From Gammaproteobacteria bacterium (lineage in GTDB: Bacteria > Pseudomonadota > Gammaproteobacteria > Eutrophobiales > Eutrophobiaceae), in NCBI GenBank assembly GCA_028279365.1, contig JANQNX010000014.1:393921-457920 (forward strand): a DNA stretch of 64,000 bases, read 5' to 3'. Both the position numbers and the translations under genes were made by a program. Of the stretch, positions 1,738-12,880 are shown one piece after another. The number at the start of each line of letters is the position of its first letter. Position 1 is the first letter of the stretch. The notes under the pieces are model-generated. The model saw nothing but the letters and a program-made list of their open reading frames with translations, ran no database searches and was not told the origin of the DNA.

Positions 1738-2763
1738 ATGTCTATTGCATATCGTCAATTTGATAATGGGGTAAAGAACCGAGCGAGCATCGATTTCATA
1801 ATAGGTAAAGCGGGAAAAAAATTTAAAGCTAGATATGATCTACTATTAGTCATAGCAATCAGTCTGTTTACTTTAGTTGTTTCTGCCTATTTTGATCTTT
1901 ACGAATTACTGTTTCATTGGACTCGCCAATATGACTGGTTTGAAATCGATGAGTTATTTATTACGACCCTGGTATTCTTCCCAGGTCTGGTTTGGTTTAG
2001 TCATCGGCGCTGGAAAGACGCCAGTTTTGCATTGAATAAAAGTCTGGAAATGCAGGTTTCGCTGGAAGCAAGTGAAAGCCAAAAGACTGAATCATTAAAG
2101 GAAAACCGCAGGCTGTTGAATCGTATTTCTGAAATACAGGAAGCGGAACGGAAACGAATTGCATCTGATTTACACGACATATTTGGACAATATTTGACGG
2201 CAATTCATGCCAATGCCTCAACGATTCGGACAAGCCTGAAACAGGGTAGTGATCTTATTAATCTCGCAGATAAAATTATCCTTGAATCACAACAATTGAG
2301 TAAATTGACCCGGCTCATGTTGGATGAGCTGCGTCCGACAATATTGGAAAAAGTCGGATTGGATGGGGCGTTGACTAATCTGGTTTCCAAATGGCAAGAA
2401 AATAATCCCACTTATCAAATTGAATTATCAAGCAATGGTGATGATGAGAAAGTCGACATCAGTGTTGCATTGGTAATTTATCGTACAGTACAGGAAGGTC
2501 TGACAAATATTATTAAGCATTCCGGGGCAACAGAAGTCAGTTTGTTTGTTGATTATCAAAGCATTGGTGAAGACGACAGTGATAACTGGATATTCATGTT
2601 ATTGAGCGATAATGGAAACGGGTTTGTCTATCCAGCTGAAACGGAAGGGTTAGGTCTGATCGGTATTCGCGAACGCGTGAATAACCTGGAGGGTTCTTTC
2701 GAGATCGTGGCCACGCCGGGAGAAGGAGTAGAACTATCAGTATTAATTCCAAATGAAGTCTAG
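1738..2763 (+). CDS. NarL-family sensor histidine kinase (HisKA_3)
   Basis: Membrane-bound histidine kinase of 341 residues. Two hydrophobic segments (about 34-52 and 72-88) are followed by a short coiled region and a HisKA_3 dimerisation domain whose phospho-acceptor is His146 in the motif SDLHD. The HATPase part shows an N-box (TNIIKHS), DNGNGF and GLGLIGIRERV. There is almost no periplasmic domain, so the signal is probably sensed in or at the membrane. Its stop codon shares one base with the GTG start of the response regulator, so the two are translationally coupled. The operon context (cupredoxin-like protein and ExbB/ExbD-like genes downstream) suggests that it controls that envelope system or the neighbouring quinoprotein locus. 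The signal is unknown. Confidence 0.9.
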   Translation: MSIAYRQFDNGVKNRASIDFIIGKAGKKFKARYDLLLVIAISLFTLVVSAYFDLYELLFHWTRQYDWFEIDELFITTLVFFPGLVWFSHRRWKDASFALNKSLEMQVSLEASESQKTESLKENRRLLNRISEIQEAERKRIASDLHDIFGQYLTAIHANASTIRTSLKQGSDLINLADKIILESQQLSKLTRLMLDELRPTILEKVGLDGALTNLVSKWQENNPTYQIELSSNGDDEKVDISVALVIYRTVQEGLTNIIKHSGATEVSLFVDYQSIGEDDSDNWIFMLLSDNGNGFVYPAETEGLGLIGIRERVNNLEGSFEIVATPGEGVELSVLIPNEV

Positions 2764-3446
2764 TGGCAAATATGGAAACTGAAAAAATTAATTTACTGAT
2801 TATTGACGACCATGAGATTGTTTCAGATGGATATAAAAATCTTCTTGAAGCAGAAGGTTTTACTGTTTTGGGGTGTGCCTGTAATGCTAATGATGGTTAC
2901 CAGCTTTATAAACAGTTAAAGCCGGATGTTACGTTAATTGATATTTCGATGCCGGGGAAAAGCGGGTTTAGCTGTATAGAAACAATCATTAAATATGACT
3001 CTGAAGCCAGATTGATCGTTTGTACAATGTTTGATGAAACACAAATTGCCGCACAAGCAATACGATGTGGTGCTAAAGGCTTTATCACAAAAGCAAACAG
3101 CCTATCAATAATGGTGGATGCAATTAAAAAGGTATACGTTGGTGGCCATTATCTGGCAGAAAAATATGCCCAAAATATTGCTCTGATGGAAGTTAGTAAT
3201 AAGGCTAAACATGTATCAGAATCATTTACCCAACTTGATAGATTGACTGCGAAAGAGTTTTCTATATTCAAGATGGTATCAGAAGGTAAAAAAACGATAG
3301 AAATAGCGGAAGAGATGTGCCTATCAGTAAAGACTGTTGCTAACTATCGCTCTCGCATTTTGAGAAAGACCCGGGCAAAAAATACATATGAACTGATGTT
3401 AATCGCAATCAAACAAGGGGTTATACAGACTGTTGTAGATATATAA
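2763..3446 (+). CDS. NarL/LuxR-type response regulator
   Basis: Two-domain regulator of 227 residues. The receiver has the acidic pair (IIDDHE), the phospho-acceptor in LIDISMPG, and a late lysine in FITKAN. The C-terminal LuxR-type helix-turn-helix starts at LTAKEFSIFKM and contains the recognition stretch LSVKTVANYRSRI. The GTG start overlaps the kinase stop; an ATG three codons later (2772) is an equally possible start. It is the cognate partner of the preceding kinase. Likely targets are the downstream cupredoxin/ExbB/ExbD operon or the quinoprotein genes; this is inferred from position only. Confidence 0.92.
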   Translation: MANMETEKINLLIIDDHEIVSDGYKNLLEAEGFTVLGCACNANDGYQLYKQLKPDVTLIDISMPGKSGFSCIETIIKYDSEARLIVCTMFDETQIAAQAIRCGAKGFITKANSLSIMVDAIKKVYVGGHYLAEKYAQNIALMEVSNKAKHVSESFTQLDRLTAKEFSIFKMVSEGKKTIEIAEEMCLSVKTVANYRSRILRKTRAKNTYELMLIAIKQGVIQTVVDI

Positions 3447-3488: not shown

Positions 3489-3932
3489 ATGTTGAGATTA
3501 TTTTTCTATAAACTAAACATCATTATTTTATCCTTTTCCAGCCTGCTTTTGTCACAAAATGTAATGGCTAAGGGGAATTTGATTGCCAGGTGTGAAAAAT
3601 TAGAAACACAACATCTTGGTATTGATGATGCAGGGTTCGCGGTTTCAAACCAAAAATATAAAATAGAAACAGGAAAATGTTACAAACTCGAAATTGCATC
3701 CACCGGTAAACATGAATATATCCTACGTGCCCCCGAGTTTTTTTCTTCCATATATATCAGAAAGCTGGATATCGCGAACACTGAAATTGGTATTAATAGT
3801 TTACGTTCAATTGATTTTGATGATGAAGTGTCAGTCAAGTTATATTTTTTAGTGGTAAAACCCGGAACTTATGAAATAAGAGATAAATACCTGGCCGACA
3901 AAGGCACACGATTCGAAATCGAAGTGGAATAA
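3489..3932 (+). CDS. Exported cupredoxin-like protein of unknown function
   Basis: Small secreted protein of 147 residues with a signal peptide (hydrophobic stretch at about 9-24, cleavage near VMAKG). The mature part resembles the cupredoxin-like beta-sandwich of small copper-binding proteins: a KIETGKCYKLEI strand, then a HEYILRAPEFF segment and a late VVKPGTYEIRD segment where a cupredoxin would carry its ligand loop. A Cys, a His and several acidic residues are present, but a complete His2-Cys-Met type 1 copper site cannot be confirmed. An AATGAGGAGTGAG-type ribosome site precedes the ATG. It begins the envelope operon 3489-5853. Copper binding is inferred, not shown. Confidence 0.6.
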   Translation: MLRLFFYKLNIIILSFSSLLLSQNVMAKGNLIARCEKLETQHLGIDDAGFAVSNQKYKIETGKCYKLEIASTGKHEYILRAPEFFSSIYIRKLDIANTEIGINSLRSIDFDDEVSVKLYFLVVKPGTYEIRDKYLADKGTRFEIEVE

Positions 3933-3946
3933 GGATTTCAATAGAT

Positions 3947-4705
3947 GTGATGGAACATATGTCGATGTCTGAAAAGATAACGCCAAAATTTTATGAGTAT
4001 GAATACTGGTTGTTTTTATGCTGGCTGCTACTCATAAGCCTCATTGTATTCGGTATATCATTATGCTGGAGCGAAGGATACTTCTATATACTGAATTCTA
4101 CTGACAAAAGTCGAATATCATTACTCATAGCGGCACTATTCGCACTAGGCACGATACATTGCGCATTTAGGGCGTTGTATCTGTCTGACCAGTTGGCACT
4201 TCTACCAAAGCCAGAGGATATCAATTCATTAATTAAGTGTGATGATAAAAGCATTCGTCTAGGTTCCCGGACGCTACCGGTTCGTAGTCTGGTTGGTAAT
4301 TACCTTTACCATCTTGATCTCACTTCAGAACAGAGTGATGACAATAATAGGGAAACGAACGGAATAGATATCTTGATTGCCAAAGCAAAGGGGAGTCACG
4401 ACATTGGTTGGCATCTGGTTGATGTCCTGCTCAAGCTAGGATTAATCGGTACTATTATCGGGTTTATTTTAATGTTGAACTCGGTCAGCAATACTGAAAC
4501 CCTGGATGTAGATTCAATGCAGTTGGTATTGAAACAAATGAGTGCCGGTATGGGTACCGCATTATTTACAACACTGGTTGGTATGATGGGTAGCGTATTA
4601 CTCGGTTTACAGTATCTTATGTTGGACAAAGGTGCAGACATGTTGATTGAGAACGCACTTGAGATTTCCGATGATCTGAATCTCAGACAATCTGTTTCTC
4701 CATGA
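3947..4705 (+). CDS. MotA/TolQ/ExbB-type proton-channel family membrane protein
   Basis: Integral membrane protein of 252 residues with four hydrophobic segments, at about 21-41, 57-79, 157-180 and 200-226. The last two form the conserved MotA/ExbB hairpin: a glycine-rich LGLIGTIIGFILML helix, a cytoplasmic loop, then MGTALFTTLVGMMGSVLLG. In this superfamily a pentamer of such proteins surrounds a dimer of a one-helix ExbD/MotB-like partner and conducts protons to drive an envelope machine. The next gene encodes such a partner. GTG (3947) and ATG (3950) are adjacent start options. The C-terminus lacks the long cytoplasmic domain of MotA. No TonB gene is nearby, so this is probably not the ordinary TonB motor. 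Confidence 0.78.
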   Translation: MMEHMSMSEKITPKFYEYEYWLFLCWLLLISLIVFGISLCWSEGYFYILNSTDKSRISLLIAALFALGTIHCAFRALYLSDQLALLPKPEDINSLIKCDDKSIRLGSRTLPVRSLVGNYLYHLDLTSEQSDDNNRETNGIDILIAKAKGSHDIGWHLVDVLLKLGLIGTIIGFILMLNSVSNTETLDVDSMQLVLKQMSAGMGTALFTTLVGMMGSVLLGLQYLMLDKGADMLIENALEISDDLNLRQSVSP

Positions 4706-4716
4706 AGATTTTCTGA

Positions 4717-5322
4717 ATGGCATTTAATAATCGATGGAGTCGTGAACGTAAATTAAGCGATCCGTTTTCTGACTTGTTATTTAACGGCTTGTTGGGATTT
4801 ACGTTTTTATTTTTGTTGGCCATCATGTTTATGAACCCTGTTGCAAAAACCGGAATCATTGACCCCAAGGCAGAATACATCATATCGGTATCCTGGGAAG
4901 ATAACAGTCCGGATGATATCGATACCTGGGTAGAAGATCCAAAAGGAAACCTGGTTTGGTTTCGTGATCGTGAAGCTGGATTAATACATCTCGACAGGGA
5001 TGATAGGGGAATTGCCAACGATACGATAACAGTCAATGGAGAAGAAATTCAGAATCCATTAAATCAGGAAGTTATAACAATTCGTGGTGTTGTATCAGGA
5101 GAGTATGTAGTTAATCTGCATTACTATTCATCAGAAACGAAAAAGCCTGTTGAAGTTGATGTGAAAGTGATGAAAGTCAATCCGGCTTTGGAAATTGTTT
5201 ATTATGGCCAGGTAACTTTGAAAGGACGCGGAGATGAAAAGACCGCAGTAAGGTTTAGTGTCGATAAATCCGGGAGTGTCACACAGATTAATCATATTCA
5301 AAAAAGTATAGTGAGATTATAA
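4717..5322 (+). CDS. ExbD/MotB-like single-helix protein with DUF2135-like periplasmic domain
   Basis: A 201-residue protein with a short cytoplasmic N-terminus, one transmembrane helix (about 21-38) and a periplasmic beta-rich domain. Asp15 and Asp19 lie just before or at the start of the helix (DPFSDLLFNGLLG), the position of the essential proton-binding Asp in ExbD and MotB. The periplasmic part does not look like the ExbD or OmpA fold. Instead residues 54-80 read like the DUF2135/YfaP type (VSWEDNSPDDIDTWVEDPKG), where such domains have a W..D.DL.V.DP.G pattern, followed by strands to the C-terminus. It lies 11 bases after the ExbB-like gene. The stator-like role is inferred from topology and pairing; the domain combination was not recognised as a described family. 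Confidence 0.65.
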   Translation: MAFNNRWSRERKLSDPFSDLLFNGLLGFTFLFLLAIMFMNPVAKTGIIDPKAEYIISVSWEDNSPDDIDTWVEDPKGNLVWFRDREAGLIHLDRDDRGIANDTITVNGEEIQNPLNQEVITIRGVVSGEYVVNLHYYSSETKKPVEVDVKVMKVNPALEIVYYGQVTLKGRGDEKTAVRFSVDKSGSVTQINHIQKSIVRL

Positions 5323-5334
5323 GAGGGGATAACG

Positions 5335-5853
5335 ATGATAATGGGTCAAGTCGGAATAATATCGTGTTTTTTTTTATTGGCATTTTTACTCCTTATCCTC
5401 AATTTGTTCTCACATTGGCATTGGAAAATTAAATCGATAAGCATAGTAATTGTCATGATGTTTTACCTGGTTTGTTATTTTTCTTTTCCTCCCTTACTTG
5501 GCTGGCCAACAGAACAGACAGTACCGAAACGATTTAAATTAGTATCTGAAGTTATCAAAGAGCCCAATAAACAAAAAGGTACTAAAGGGAGTATTTACCT
5601 TTGGGCTACCGATTTAGCTGAAGATCCTGATGAGGTTATACCGAGATCATATCGATTACCGTATACAACGAAAATGCATAAACTGGTTGTTGAAGCCGGC
5701 AATAAAGTTAGAAAAGGTATACCGCAAGTAGGCGAGGTCGCTGATGGGGGTAATTTTGGCATGGTCGATCCAAGTGACACATACCAGGGGGGCGATGTAT
5801 CAATTGCGCTGGAGTTTTTTGATCTGCCCGAGACGGTACTACCTGAGAAATAA
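5335..5853 (+). CDS. Two-helix membrane protein with soluble C-terminal domain, unknown
   Basis: A 172-residue protein, not recognised. Two hydrophobic segments (about 6-25 and 33-51) are followed by a soluble domain of some 115 residues that is presumably periplasmic or cytoplasmic depending on topology. The soluble part is rich in charged and proline residues (for example GSIYLWATDLAEDPDE and a later YRLPYTT segment) without an evident catalytic motif. It is last in the operon, 12 bases after the ExbD-like gene and preceded by an AGAGGGG ribosome site. Its conserved placement with the motor pair suggests that it is a third subunit of the same complex; that is inference. Confidence 0.55.
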   Translation: MIMGQVGIISCFFLLAFLLLILNLFSHWHWKIKSISIVIVMMFYLVCYFSFPPLLGWPTEQTVPKRFKLVSEVIKEPNKQKGTKGSIYLWATDLAEDPDEVIPRSYRLPYTTKMHKLVVEAGNKVRKGIPQVGEVADGGNFGMVDPSDTYQGGDVSIALEFFDLPETVLPEK

Positions 5854-5868
5854 TGTAATAAATTACAC

Positions 5869-6360
5869 TTATTCAATAACGGATAAGTTTTTGTTAAGAA
5901 TTTTACCTACCTTATTCCGTGCTTCATTGATCAAGTGTGCATACAATTGACCAGATAAATTTTGCACATAGGGCAGGGCGGATTCATGTCCAGAATGAAA
6001 GGCCGCCCAATACCAGCCATAGGCCAAGGCTGGATCTATCGTCGTTCCTTTGCCATTCTCAATCATCCTGCCCAGGTTGACTTGCGCTTCTGGTAGCCCA
6101 GCAATCGCAGCTTTTTCATAATAATTATAGGCTTTTGTATAATTACGTGGAGTCGCTAGTCCCAATTCGTAATGAACCCCGAGTAAATTGTGGACGAAAG
6201 GTTTTGGTGAATTATTCTCTGACTGTTTTAGTAAAAAGAATGAACGTTGATAATCTCCGTTTTTAAATGCTTCAGAGTAATTTTTTTCTTGCAAACAAGC
6301 GGTTTGTAAAATAAATGCTAATATAAAAAGCAATTGAAAAATTCTAATTTTAAAAATCAT
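5869..6360 (-). CDS. Sel1-repeat (SLR) lipoprotein
   Basis: A 163-residue lipoprotein on the minus strand. The signal peptide ends in a lipobox (LQTAC) at about residue 22. The mature part has Sel1-like tetratricopeptide units: VHNLLGVHYELGLATPRNY, then the stretch KAYNYYEKAAIAGLPEAQVN and LGRMIENGKGTTIDP. Such proteins are protein-interaction scaffolds, often in the periplasm. It converges on the ExbD-like operon, with only 15 bases between the two stop codons, and is followed on its own strand by nothing else. A specific partner cannot be named. Confidence 0.75.
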   Translation of the reverse strand: MIFKIRIFQLLFILAFILQTACLQEKNYSEAFKNGDYQRSFFLLKQSENNSPKPFVHNLLGVHYELGLATPRNYTKAYNYYEKAAIAGLPEAQVNLGRMIENGKGTTIDPALAYGWYWAAFHSGHESALPYVQNLSGQLYAHLINEARNKVGKILNKNLSVIE

Positions 6361-6384: not shown

Positions 6385-7107
6385 TTAATTATGGTAGATG
6401 TCCTTGAGTATCAGACGATATTCGCCAGTCATTAAAATATCTTCACTCGTTTGTTCTCGCCATTCCAATTTGACCAAGCCGATACCTGGTGCATACCATT
6501 CACGTATACTCAGTTCAATACTAACATTTCCCATTGAGTCTCCAGCATCGATCTCGGCCTTACCAATAGCATCAATAACAACACAGTTTGTAAATTCACC
6601 TGCAGGTGTTTCTATACTTGCGTTAGTATCAATAATTGAAAATGTAACGTCTACAGGATGTCTCAGACTAGCAGTTGTGGTGCAGTAGCCACAGGCAAAT
6701 TCAGGAATAAATTGGGTTTTAATTCTTCGAGTCCACTGATAATTCTCTTTTGGAGGAAAGGGAAATATGAGTTCTCCAGTGTCTTCCTGATGAGTCAAAA
6801 AATAAACACCGGATCTATCTAAACGATAAGTAATCTTATCTCGATCCTGTCTGGTACGTTTTAGAATGATGTTGTTATCGTCTTCTTGATATCCGATATT
6901 TCGCACAATATGAATAAAATCACTATCCGTTAGGCGCCAATTATTTTGGTGACCGGAATAAACCCATTGCGTATTATTTTGTAGAGGAAAAAAATTATCA
7001 GGGTCTGGGTTTGACTCACATGATGCTAATGCAAACATTGAAAATAAACCTGCTATTACTTTAAAGACTCTATTAAACTGAGTTTTCAAATAATAAAGCA
7101 CGTTCAT
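6385..7107 (-). CDS. Hypothetical lipoprotein
   Basis: A 240-residue lipoprotein precursor on the minus strand, with a hydrophobic signal followed by the lipobox ALASC at about residue 30. The mature protein starts with FFPLQNNTQWVYSG, a common opening of a family of uncharacterised secreted beta-barrel-like proteins, and contains a CGYC cysteine pair mid-sequence (about 138-141). It precedes the Sel1-repeat lipoprotein by 24 bases, probably in one operon. No function was recognised. Confidence 0.65.
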   Translation of the reverse strand: MNVLYYLKTQFNRVFKVIAGLFSMFALASCESNPDPDNFFPLQNNTQWVYSGHQNNWRLTDSDFIHIVRNIGYQEDDNNIILKRTRQDRDKITYRLDRSGVYFLTHQEDTGELIFPFPPKENYQWTRRIKTQFIPEFACGYCTTTASLRHPVDVTFSIIDTNASIETPAGEFTNCVVIDAIGKAEIDAGDSMGNVSIELSIREWYAPGIGLVKLEWREQTSEDILMTGEYRLILKDIYHN

Positions 7108-11050: not shown

Positions 11051-12880
11051 ATGAAAATTCGTAATTTATGTTTGATTAACAAGTTAATCATTATTTTGTT
11101 GTTTTCTATAAATCTTAATGCAGCAGATAAATCCGAAAAGTTCGAACAAGATGATCAGTACATCTATGAGAAAGATTTTGATGAATTAACGCAAGCAGAG
11201 CATACCAGGGCTAAGCGTTTAGCGGAAAAGGCAAAGATTCGTCCCTTAGTCGCCTGTGCCGACCCGGGCAACATGCCCATGTCAAACATGAAGGAACAAG
11301 GTTATGACAATCGGGTTGTAAAATTGTTAGCTGATGCGATGGGCACCTCGGTTCAGTTTTTCTGGCGTCCCTATCTGGAGCGAGGATTACACAGAGAGAC
11401 ATTCAGTAATAAAGAATGTGATCTTCTGTTAGGTATGCCATATGGCTATGCCGAGATACTGACAACTATGCCTATTTATAGAAGTACGTACGTATTTGCT
11501 TCTCGGGAAGATAGGCAGTTAAAGATAAAAGATCTGGATGATCCTATTCTTACTAATTTAAAAATTGGCACTTATCAGCATTCCGGTTTAAGAGAGGCAC
11601 TCAGCTATCATGGTGTTACGGCCAATATCGATGTTCATGTCATTAGGCAAGACACCGATTTGGTACCGGAACATCAGCAATGGCAACAGGTACAAAAAGT
11701 GGTTGATGGTGAGTTGGACTTAGCTGGTGTTTGGGGGCCATTTGCAGGTTATGTCAAAACGAAAAAGGATGGACCATTGGTACTACAGCCGGTTAATTTG
11801 ATGGAAGACCGGACTCCATTAGAGTTTTCACTAGCAATCGGTATGCGAACCAATGATGTGGTTCTTAAATATGCCTTCGATAAGGCAATCCAGGAAAATG
11901 CTGAAGAGATAGAAGCGGTTTTGAATGAATTTGGTGTACCGTTGGTTTCCTGCAGTGAATGTGCGGTACAAGGTAGCTTGCCTTCTCATGGTTCGTATTA
12001 CGAACGTTTTATTGATCAAGCAAAAAAACGCTATCTGGAACCTCTGCCAGAAGAACAAACGCAAATCAACGCAGATATTGCACCTGCGGATCAAGTCGTG
12101 GACGAACAACGTCTGGAGCAATGGTTAGCTGAAGGCGCGGATATTAATGAGGAACTCAACAATGCTGTGGTGGCTTCGGATGAATTTCGTGTCCGTTACC
12201 TTATCAAGCGCGGTGCTGATATTAACTATTTAAATAAGTTGGGTAATGGTTTATTACATCAAGCCGCACGCTATCGGGATTCAAAGATGCTGGATATATT
12301 ATTGAGCCTGAATGCTAATCCAAATCTTAAGGATATGAATGGCAAGACCCCATTGATTCACGCGACACTCAGCAATCATGTCCCTTCCATTGAGACCCTG
12401 GTAAAGGCTGGCGCCAATCTGGAAATAAAAGAAAGAGATCAATTCAATGCGCTTTCTATTGCTGTAGGGAAGAAAAAATTCTGGGCAGTTCTCGCACTAA
12501 TAGATGCTGGAGCAGATGTGAACACGACAGTGGGTGAAAAAGCAATGACACCACTGATGATTATATGTACACAACATAAATCCAAAGATCGTGAAAAGAA
12601 TATCATTGAGGGAGCTGAACCTGTTGATATTGCAAAACTGCTGATTGAAAAAGGTGCCGATGTTAATGCAACAACAAGTCTGGATGAGACACCATTAATG
12701 TTTGCTGCTGCTAACGATAATTCTCCCCTAATTGGTTTATTGGTACAAAAGAAAGCGGATATGGATGCAAAAACCAAAGATGGCAAAACGGCACTGGATA
12801 TTGCAAAGGAGCACAATCATGAAGGTGCTGTCAAATCGTTAGAGCTGTTTTCACAGTTTAGCAAGAAAAAGAAGTCTTGA
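11051..12880 (+). CDS. MoxJ/XoxJ-like substrate-binding protein fused to ankyrin repeats
   Basis: Exported protein of 609 residues (signal peptide to about 24, INLNAAD). Residues ~60-305 form a type-2 periplasmic binding fold of the quinoprotein-dehydrogenase-associated MoxJ/XoxJ group, opening with VACADPGNMPMSN and later GELDLAGVWGPFAGY. A CSEC pair lies near residue 300. From about 350 to 600 come ankyrin units with classical GADIN, LHQAARY, GKTPLIHA and GADVNATT signatures. In methylotrophs the J protein is needed for dehydrogenase activity and probably acts on apo-enzyme or cofactor insertion. The long ankyrin half is atypical, as J proteins usually end after the binding fold at some 280-300 residues, and suggests a scaffold or docking role in the periplasm. 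The next start codon lies one base after its stop. Confidence 0.82.
   Translation: MKIRNLCLINKLIIILLFSINLNAADKSEKFEQDDQYIYEKDFDELTQAEHTRAKRLAEKAKIRPLVACADPGNMPMSNMKEQGYDNRVVKLLADAMGTSVQFFWRPYLERGLHRETFSNKECDLLLGMPYGYAEILTTMPIYRSTYVFASREDRQLKIKDLDDPILTNLKIGTYQHSGLREALSYHGVTANIDVHVIRQDTDLVPEHQQWQQVQKVVDGELDLAGVWGPFAGYVKTKKDGPLVLQPVNLMEDRTPLEFSLAIGMRTNDVVLKYAFDKAIQENAEEIEAVLNEFGVPLVSCSECAVQGSLPSHGSYYERFIDQAKKRYLEPLPEEQTQINADIAPADQVVDEQRLEQWLAEGADINEELNNAVVASDEFRVRYLIKRGADINYLNKLGNGLLHQAARYRDSKMLDILLSLNANPNLKDMNGKTPLIHATLSNHVPSIETLVKAGANLEIKERDQFNALSIAVGKKKFWAVLALIDAGADVNTTVGEKAMTPLMIICTQHKSKDREKNIIEGAEPVDIAKLLIEKGADVNATTSLDETPLMFAAANDNSPLIGLLVQKKADMDAKTKDGKTALDIAKEHNHEGAVKSLELFSQFSKKKKS

Follow-up and report, generated by a model that had tools for sequence, protein, structure and literature searches.

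Do the four tightly spaced genes at positions 3489–5853 form a single machine, and does that machine serve the PQQ enzyme encoded beside them? The window analysed here, a stretch of 64,000 nucleotides from a bacterial genome of 3.14 Mb, had been described in an earlier note as carrying an exported cupredoxin-like protein, a MotA/TolQ/ExbB-type channel, a one-helix partner and a third membrane protein behind a two-component system. We found that the four open reading frames are all on the plus strand and separated by gaps of only 14, 11 and 12 bases, and that a HisKA_3 kinase and a Response_reg/GerE regulator do precede them, at 1738–3446. The three downstream genes are called B, D and T.

1738..2763, plus strand: sensor histidine kinase (HisKA_3) upstream of the operon; family match, retained in the relative L131
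2763..3446, plus strand: NarL/UhpA-type response regulator (Response_reg/GerE), upstream; family match, retained in L131
3489..3932, plus strand: gene for an exported small protein, present only in the PQQ-linked layout; homologue in 2 of 58 relatives, no Pfam match
3947..4705, plus strand: subunit B, MotA/TolQ/ExbB-type channel; PF01618 above cut-off, PDB profile matches, pore motifs
4717..5322, plus strand: subunit D, ExbD-like axle; AlphaFold, structure comparison, hhalign, conservation of Asp19
5335..5853, plus strand: subunit T, third subunit, without known family; AlphaFold, positive-inside rule, gene order
5869..6360, minus strand: Sel1-repeat protein (PF08238), retained in the sole syntenic relative, L131
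6385..7107, minus strand: DUF3108-like lipoprotein (PF21347), convergent to the operon here; neighbour statistics

The neighbourhood search for co-occurrence of the four genes split them: B, D and T proved to be linked, but the 3489 gene and the dehydrogenases were mostly absent. Among 124 viral and bacterial loci seeded from D, 117 carried B-D-T in that order on the same strand, neighbouring genes mostly overlapping or standing apart by a few bases. A D-seeded scan of IMG/VR returned 185 viral contigs, and an independent B-seeded scan returned 428 viral stretches with B relatives; gene order was checked in the best 80 of these 428, and B-D-T order was found in 78, the other two ending right after B. 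On the bacterial side, 77 of 80 named loci had the order on one strand, the other three being at or near contig ends, and contig ends account for most exceptions overall. Since the order recurs at rates far above chance with either D or B as bait, the linkage is real and independent of the bait gene. A scan of the named genomes with B alone gave no match. The source genome also holds a second B-D-T set, with 41%, 70% and 41% identity to the B, D and T of the window and without a 3489-type gene. The unit is thus three genes, B-D-T, rather than the four first proposed, as the 3489 gene joins it in only 2 of 58 relatives. In three 16-3-type phages, homing-endonuclease-like genes (Seg-like or HNH; L127:5195-5953, L129:6499-7041 and L130:5003-5953) are inserted at the B/D or the D/T junction, and the cassette survives.

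Subunit B, a protein of 252 aa with 4 predicted helices (three or four for B at large) and a cytoplasmic segment of about 90 aa, matches MotA_ExbB (PF01618) at 29.7 bits against a cut-off of 22.9, and its family profile retrieves MotA, PomA and TolQ in the PDB, which confirms the assignment of the 3947 product to the MotA/TolQ/ExbB type. Two pore motifs are conserved: GxxGT, aligned to TolQ GTVWG, with T169 in 67 of 71 rows, and ALxTT, aligned to TolQ ATAIG, with T209 in all 71. Three rows (for example L109) have Lys at the T169 position and may be inactive or differently gated. Phage B proteins are shorter than bacterial ones (about 170 versus 245 residues) because the cytoplasmic segment is reduced, its median length being 33 residues in viral and 94.5 in bacterial proteins. 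Outside Pfam, the nearest named models are those of Zorya ZorA, which match weakly at 11–17 bits against cut-offs of 100–700. A third MotA/TolQ-like protein of the same genome (L003, C6:27358-27654; 348 aa), which has a long C-terminal tail, is weakly related to B. The other ORFs of the cluster, namely 3489, D and T, matched no family in profile searches.

Subunit D has one helix (residues 16–39), with Asp19 near its start, followed by a periplasmic beta domain (54–192). The single helix is present in 64 of 64 relatives and Asp19 in 60 of 64, and the helix aligns in register, albeit weakly, with TPLIDVVF of ExbD. Asp19 is missing in a Bradyrhizobium-like lineage (L111, L119, L120), where two of the three sampled rows have Val and the third a gap, and these copies may likewise be inactive or differently gated. 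Together with the Lys at T169, this loss indicates that not all copies need conduct ions. D lies outside the ordinary ExbD/TolR family, a point on which the earlier note had staked its reading: no PF02472 match was found for D in Pfam scans or in the genome search, and the five genes of the genome that do match include neither of its D genes. Pfam scans gave no OmpA family match for the D domain.

What the periplasmic domain of D resembles was addressed by sequence and by structure. Profile–profile comparison (hhalign), checked against decoys, related it to DUF2135 with a probability of 87 and an E value of 3.7e-6, in agreement with the original description. In a Pfam search for DUF2135 (PF09906), the D of the window was unmatched and 8 of 64 relatives matched weakly (best E 0.0037, below the Pfam cut-off). 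D shares with DUF2135 (YfaP) the motif WxxxxxDxDLxVxxPxG...LDxD, but in D the domain is carried on a membrane axle of the ExbD type. W60, D67, D69, L92, R94, D95, D96, G98, E118 and R123 are invariant. The TerD family, whose members bind calcium and occur in tellurite and phage-inhibition operons, came up in the structural comparison. When the AlphaFold model of D (pLDDT 92) was compared with known structures by VIA-align, the six top rows were TerD-like, with Z of 9.1–11.5 over about 130 residues and acidic residues at comparable places, whereas the next rows reached at most 6.4; one of the TerD-like matches goes back to NMR work on how TerD binds calcium. The sequence rows behind the structure prediction left out those of the phage collection. 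For D, Foldseek alone yielded no significant match. TerD proteins are soluble, hhalign of D against TerD gave a probability of 0.6, and D was rejected as a member of the TerD sequence family on the latter ground; the genome itself has no match to PF02342 (TerD). The D domain is sequence kin of DUF2135 with a predicted TerD-like beta-sandwich fold.

The AlphaFold model of subunit T (pLDDT 87) and its topology give a transmembrane hairpin (residues 2–25 and 30–50) followed by a periplasmic alpha/beta domain, so that the 5335 product is a membrane protein, as had been noted. In 68 of 72 rows the short loop is positively charged and the N terminus is without positive charges, which by the positive-inside rule places the C-terminal domain of T in the periplasm, on the same side as the D domain. 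No TonB or TolA match was found for T and its relatives. Foldseek alone gave no significant match, and the best rows in structure comparison were only middling OB-fold ones (Z 5–6.8). The T gene is always 3' of D.

We place the set in the ExbBD/TolQR class as a variant because B belongs to the channel family while D lacks the ExbD domain. It resembles TolQ-TolR (Tol-Pal) and ExbB-ExbD (TonB) in the match of the B profile to TolQ, the ALxTT and GxxGT motifs, a partner with a single helix whose Asp lies in a PxxD context, and an envelope setting. However, D has no ExbD/TolR domain, a third subunit of no known family is added, TonB, TolA and Pal are absent, and the set is carried by phages. The flagellar stators MotA-MotB and PomA-PomB share the B profile match, but the OmpA-type peptidoglycan-binding domain is absent from BDT and B is without a large cytoplasmic torque interface, only about 33 residues being found there in phages. 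Zorya ZorA-ZorB is of the same motor class and B is weakly similar to the ZorA profile, but BDT has neither the long ZorA tail, the OmpA-like ZorB domain nor ZorC/D genes, and it occupies a fixed place in bacteria. The view that this set differs from ordinary TonB-ExbBD, Tol-Pal, Mot and Zorya systems therefore holds.

In bacteria, about a third of the 80 named loci (about 30) occupy one fixed spot on the chromosome, bounded by tilS and cytochrome b561. There dnaE, accA, tilS and the gene for a vWA-TM-FHA protein come first, then T, D and B, and then genes for a DUF302 lipoprotein, a YkuD L,D-transpeptidase, cytochrome b561, a histidine kinase and, last, a regulator. The protein adjoining T in this third of loci combines a vWA and an FHA domain with one helix (for example L144:5803-7293); vWA proteins accompany TerD-type systems too. 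In 28 of the 80 loci, many of them from marine Alphaproteobacteria, T is directly followed by a DUF3108-like lipoprotein, a relative of the product of 6385–7107 in the window. The usual bacterial neighbours of BDT are envelope proteins. Methylohalomonas lacus is one culturable species with a chromosomal copy. In a tree of 128 D proteins, all 57 typical chromosomal rows formed one clade (SH-aLRT 100) outside the viral rows, which were spread over several deep groups with only four viral/bacterial label changes; this is a quick, unrooted tree with long branches and says nothing on the direction of old exchange. Two further bacterial rows, which may come from prophages, grouped with those of the 16-3 phages, and in one 16-3-like bacterial locus, L122, a protease-like gene adjoins, as in 16-3. 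The nearest relative of the window D is that of genome G007.

The module is mainly found in viruses. Searching with D, we found the three genes in B-D-T order, all annotated as hypothetical, in four unrelated Rhizobium phages. Isolates with the module include Pootjesviridae (T4-like) and other Rhizobium phages and the temperate Sinorhizobium phage 16-3 group, in which the genes are p038, p040 and p042; a Caulobacter phage carries a more distant copy. Of the 18 large viral contigs examined, 5 encode a T4-type Gp23 capsid protein and 8 a large terminase, which shows the carriers to be tailed phages, and not all of one type. Across 69 non-redundant viral loci only B, D and T recur widely, the next commonest neighbour occurring in 14, and no constant lysis, defence or metabolic partner was detected in these loci; the commonest neighbour family, GDP-mannose dehydratase, accounts for 12 of 97 neighbour genes. 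In the 16-3 group a gene for an exported trypsin-like protease lies directly upstream of B (in phage 16-3, p036, L126:4211-5110, PF13365), and a second trypsin-like protease family recurs near marine copies (L031, L035, L048, L059). One bin, G027, contains two BDT sets, a chromosomal one (L091, on C23) and a phage-type one (L138, on C50) next to a gene for an M15 endopeptidase, which suggests that BDT phages infect hosts with their own BDT, although a binning error is possible.

Taken together, B, D and T fairly probably make up an ion-driven inner-membrane motor of the ExbBD/TolQR/MotAB class, with a new periplasmic head, that acts on the envelope and is also encoded by phages. Its motor action, its load and its benefit to phages we infer as follows. 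Five B subunits would surround two D subunits, a 5:2 ratio assumed from the class, and protons would pass T169 and T209 of B and Asp19 of D, so that the D pair turns or tilts inside the B ring. The D heads, which like TerD probably bind calcium, would then push or pull through T on the peptidoglycan–outer-membrane layer. In bacteria the load is probably upkeep of the cell wall or outer membrane, with the L,D-transpeptidase, DUF302 and vWA-FHA proteins or the DUF3108-like lipoprotein as likely partners; envelope upkeep is the likeliest load because the steady bacterial partners are cell-wall and outer-membrane proteins. Some neighbours (FHA, two-component systems) would fit a signalling role too. 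Phages carry a stripped version, with about 33 residues in the cytoplasmic part of B, which most likely changes the envelope of the infected host. The benefit may come through envelope stability, through keeping other phages out or through release, and the data favour none of these. A broader proposal, on which we are evenly balanced, is that tailed phages encode their own rotary, ion-driven motor of the ExbBD/TolQR class, a compact one with three subunits and a calcium-binding head of DUF2135/TerD fold, that reworks the envelope of the host they infect, and that one ancient transfer between viruses and bacteria gave rise to a proteobacterial housekeeping version.

The idea that started this analysis, an energised machine passing metal or cofactor to the PQQ dehydrogenase, now appears very improbable. 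The window and one relative (L131) do keep the two-component system, the exported protein, BDT and a PQQ dehydrogenase together, and in the relatives G004 and G035 BDT lies about 7–8 kb from a PQQ dehydrogenase. However, PQQ dehydrogenases are very numerous in the bacterial family of the source, and a few would be expected to lie close by; a close PQQ dehydrogenase was found in only 1 of the 80 named loci, the relative with the layout of the window, the BDT partners in the named genomes are other genes, and BDT phages have no such enzymes nearby. The 3489 product begins with a signal peptide, judged by eye, and can stay an exported protein, but its cupredoxin identity found no support, as it has no Pfam match even at E 10 and no Cys ligand of a blue-copper site. 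Since only 2 of 58 relatives have a PQQ-linked copy, no general role of BDT for the PQQ enzyme is supported; the window copy is a second paralogue beside a PQQ gene cluster. At 11051–12880 the window also encodes an ankyrin-repeat fusion of a MoxJ-type quinoprotein-associated binding protein. Least probable of all is a sensor in place of a motor, in which B-D would read the proton gradient or calcium and report through FHA or two-component partners: a vWA-FHA protein and a histidine kinase with its regulator are near many bacterial copies, but nearly all copies keep the pore residues and the phage copies are without such partners.

Two further explanations start from the phages. BDT might be a device of warfare, by which a phage excludes superinfecting phages or blocks a host envelope process, with bacterial copies domesticated as a Zorya-like defence. 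The weak similarity of B to ZorA, the presence of the cassette in unrelated phages, one of them temperate, and the binning of the phage-type L138 with a genome that has its own chromosomal copy are all in its favour. We nevertheless regard it as unlikely, since about 30 of 80 chromosomal copies sit at the fixed dnaE-accA-tilS place with vertical descent, as a mobile defence island would not, ZorC/ZorD-type genes were not seen adjoining chromosomal copies, and the ZorA scores are far under the cut-offs. A lysis or release aid, dissipating the proton gradient or tearing the outer membrane late in infection, is more doubtful still. M15 endolysin-like genes near L138, L009/L010 and L077/L080 and lysozyme genes a few kb upstream in two 16-3-type phages would suit it, but no lysis family is constant beside the cassette, the copies in Rhizobium T4-like phages sit among replication and sigma-factor genes, and the housekeeping bacterial copies are left unexplained.

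In cells, ion-driven motors of this class are known to power uptake, division, motility, gliding and anti-phage defence. The channel family was already known; D, T and the phage-borne operon are new as far as the literature was searched, and no published description of such a module was found in that part. In the passages searched, a 2025 MotAB phylogeny (PMC12505986) and a 2022 review of 5:2 motors (PMC9389320) describe no virus-encoded case. If the motor reading is true, a compact engine in hundreds of phage genomes, kept as a strict three-gene operon, would mean that viruses supply a trans-envelope engine. The phage form is near the bare membrane core and is useful for asking what the cytoplasmic part of such motors does. 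Phage 16-3 with its Sinorhizobium host offers a tractable system for direct tests of function. The bacterial copies, for their part, suggest that many marine Alpha- and Gammaproteobacteria have an envelope system not yet described.
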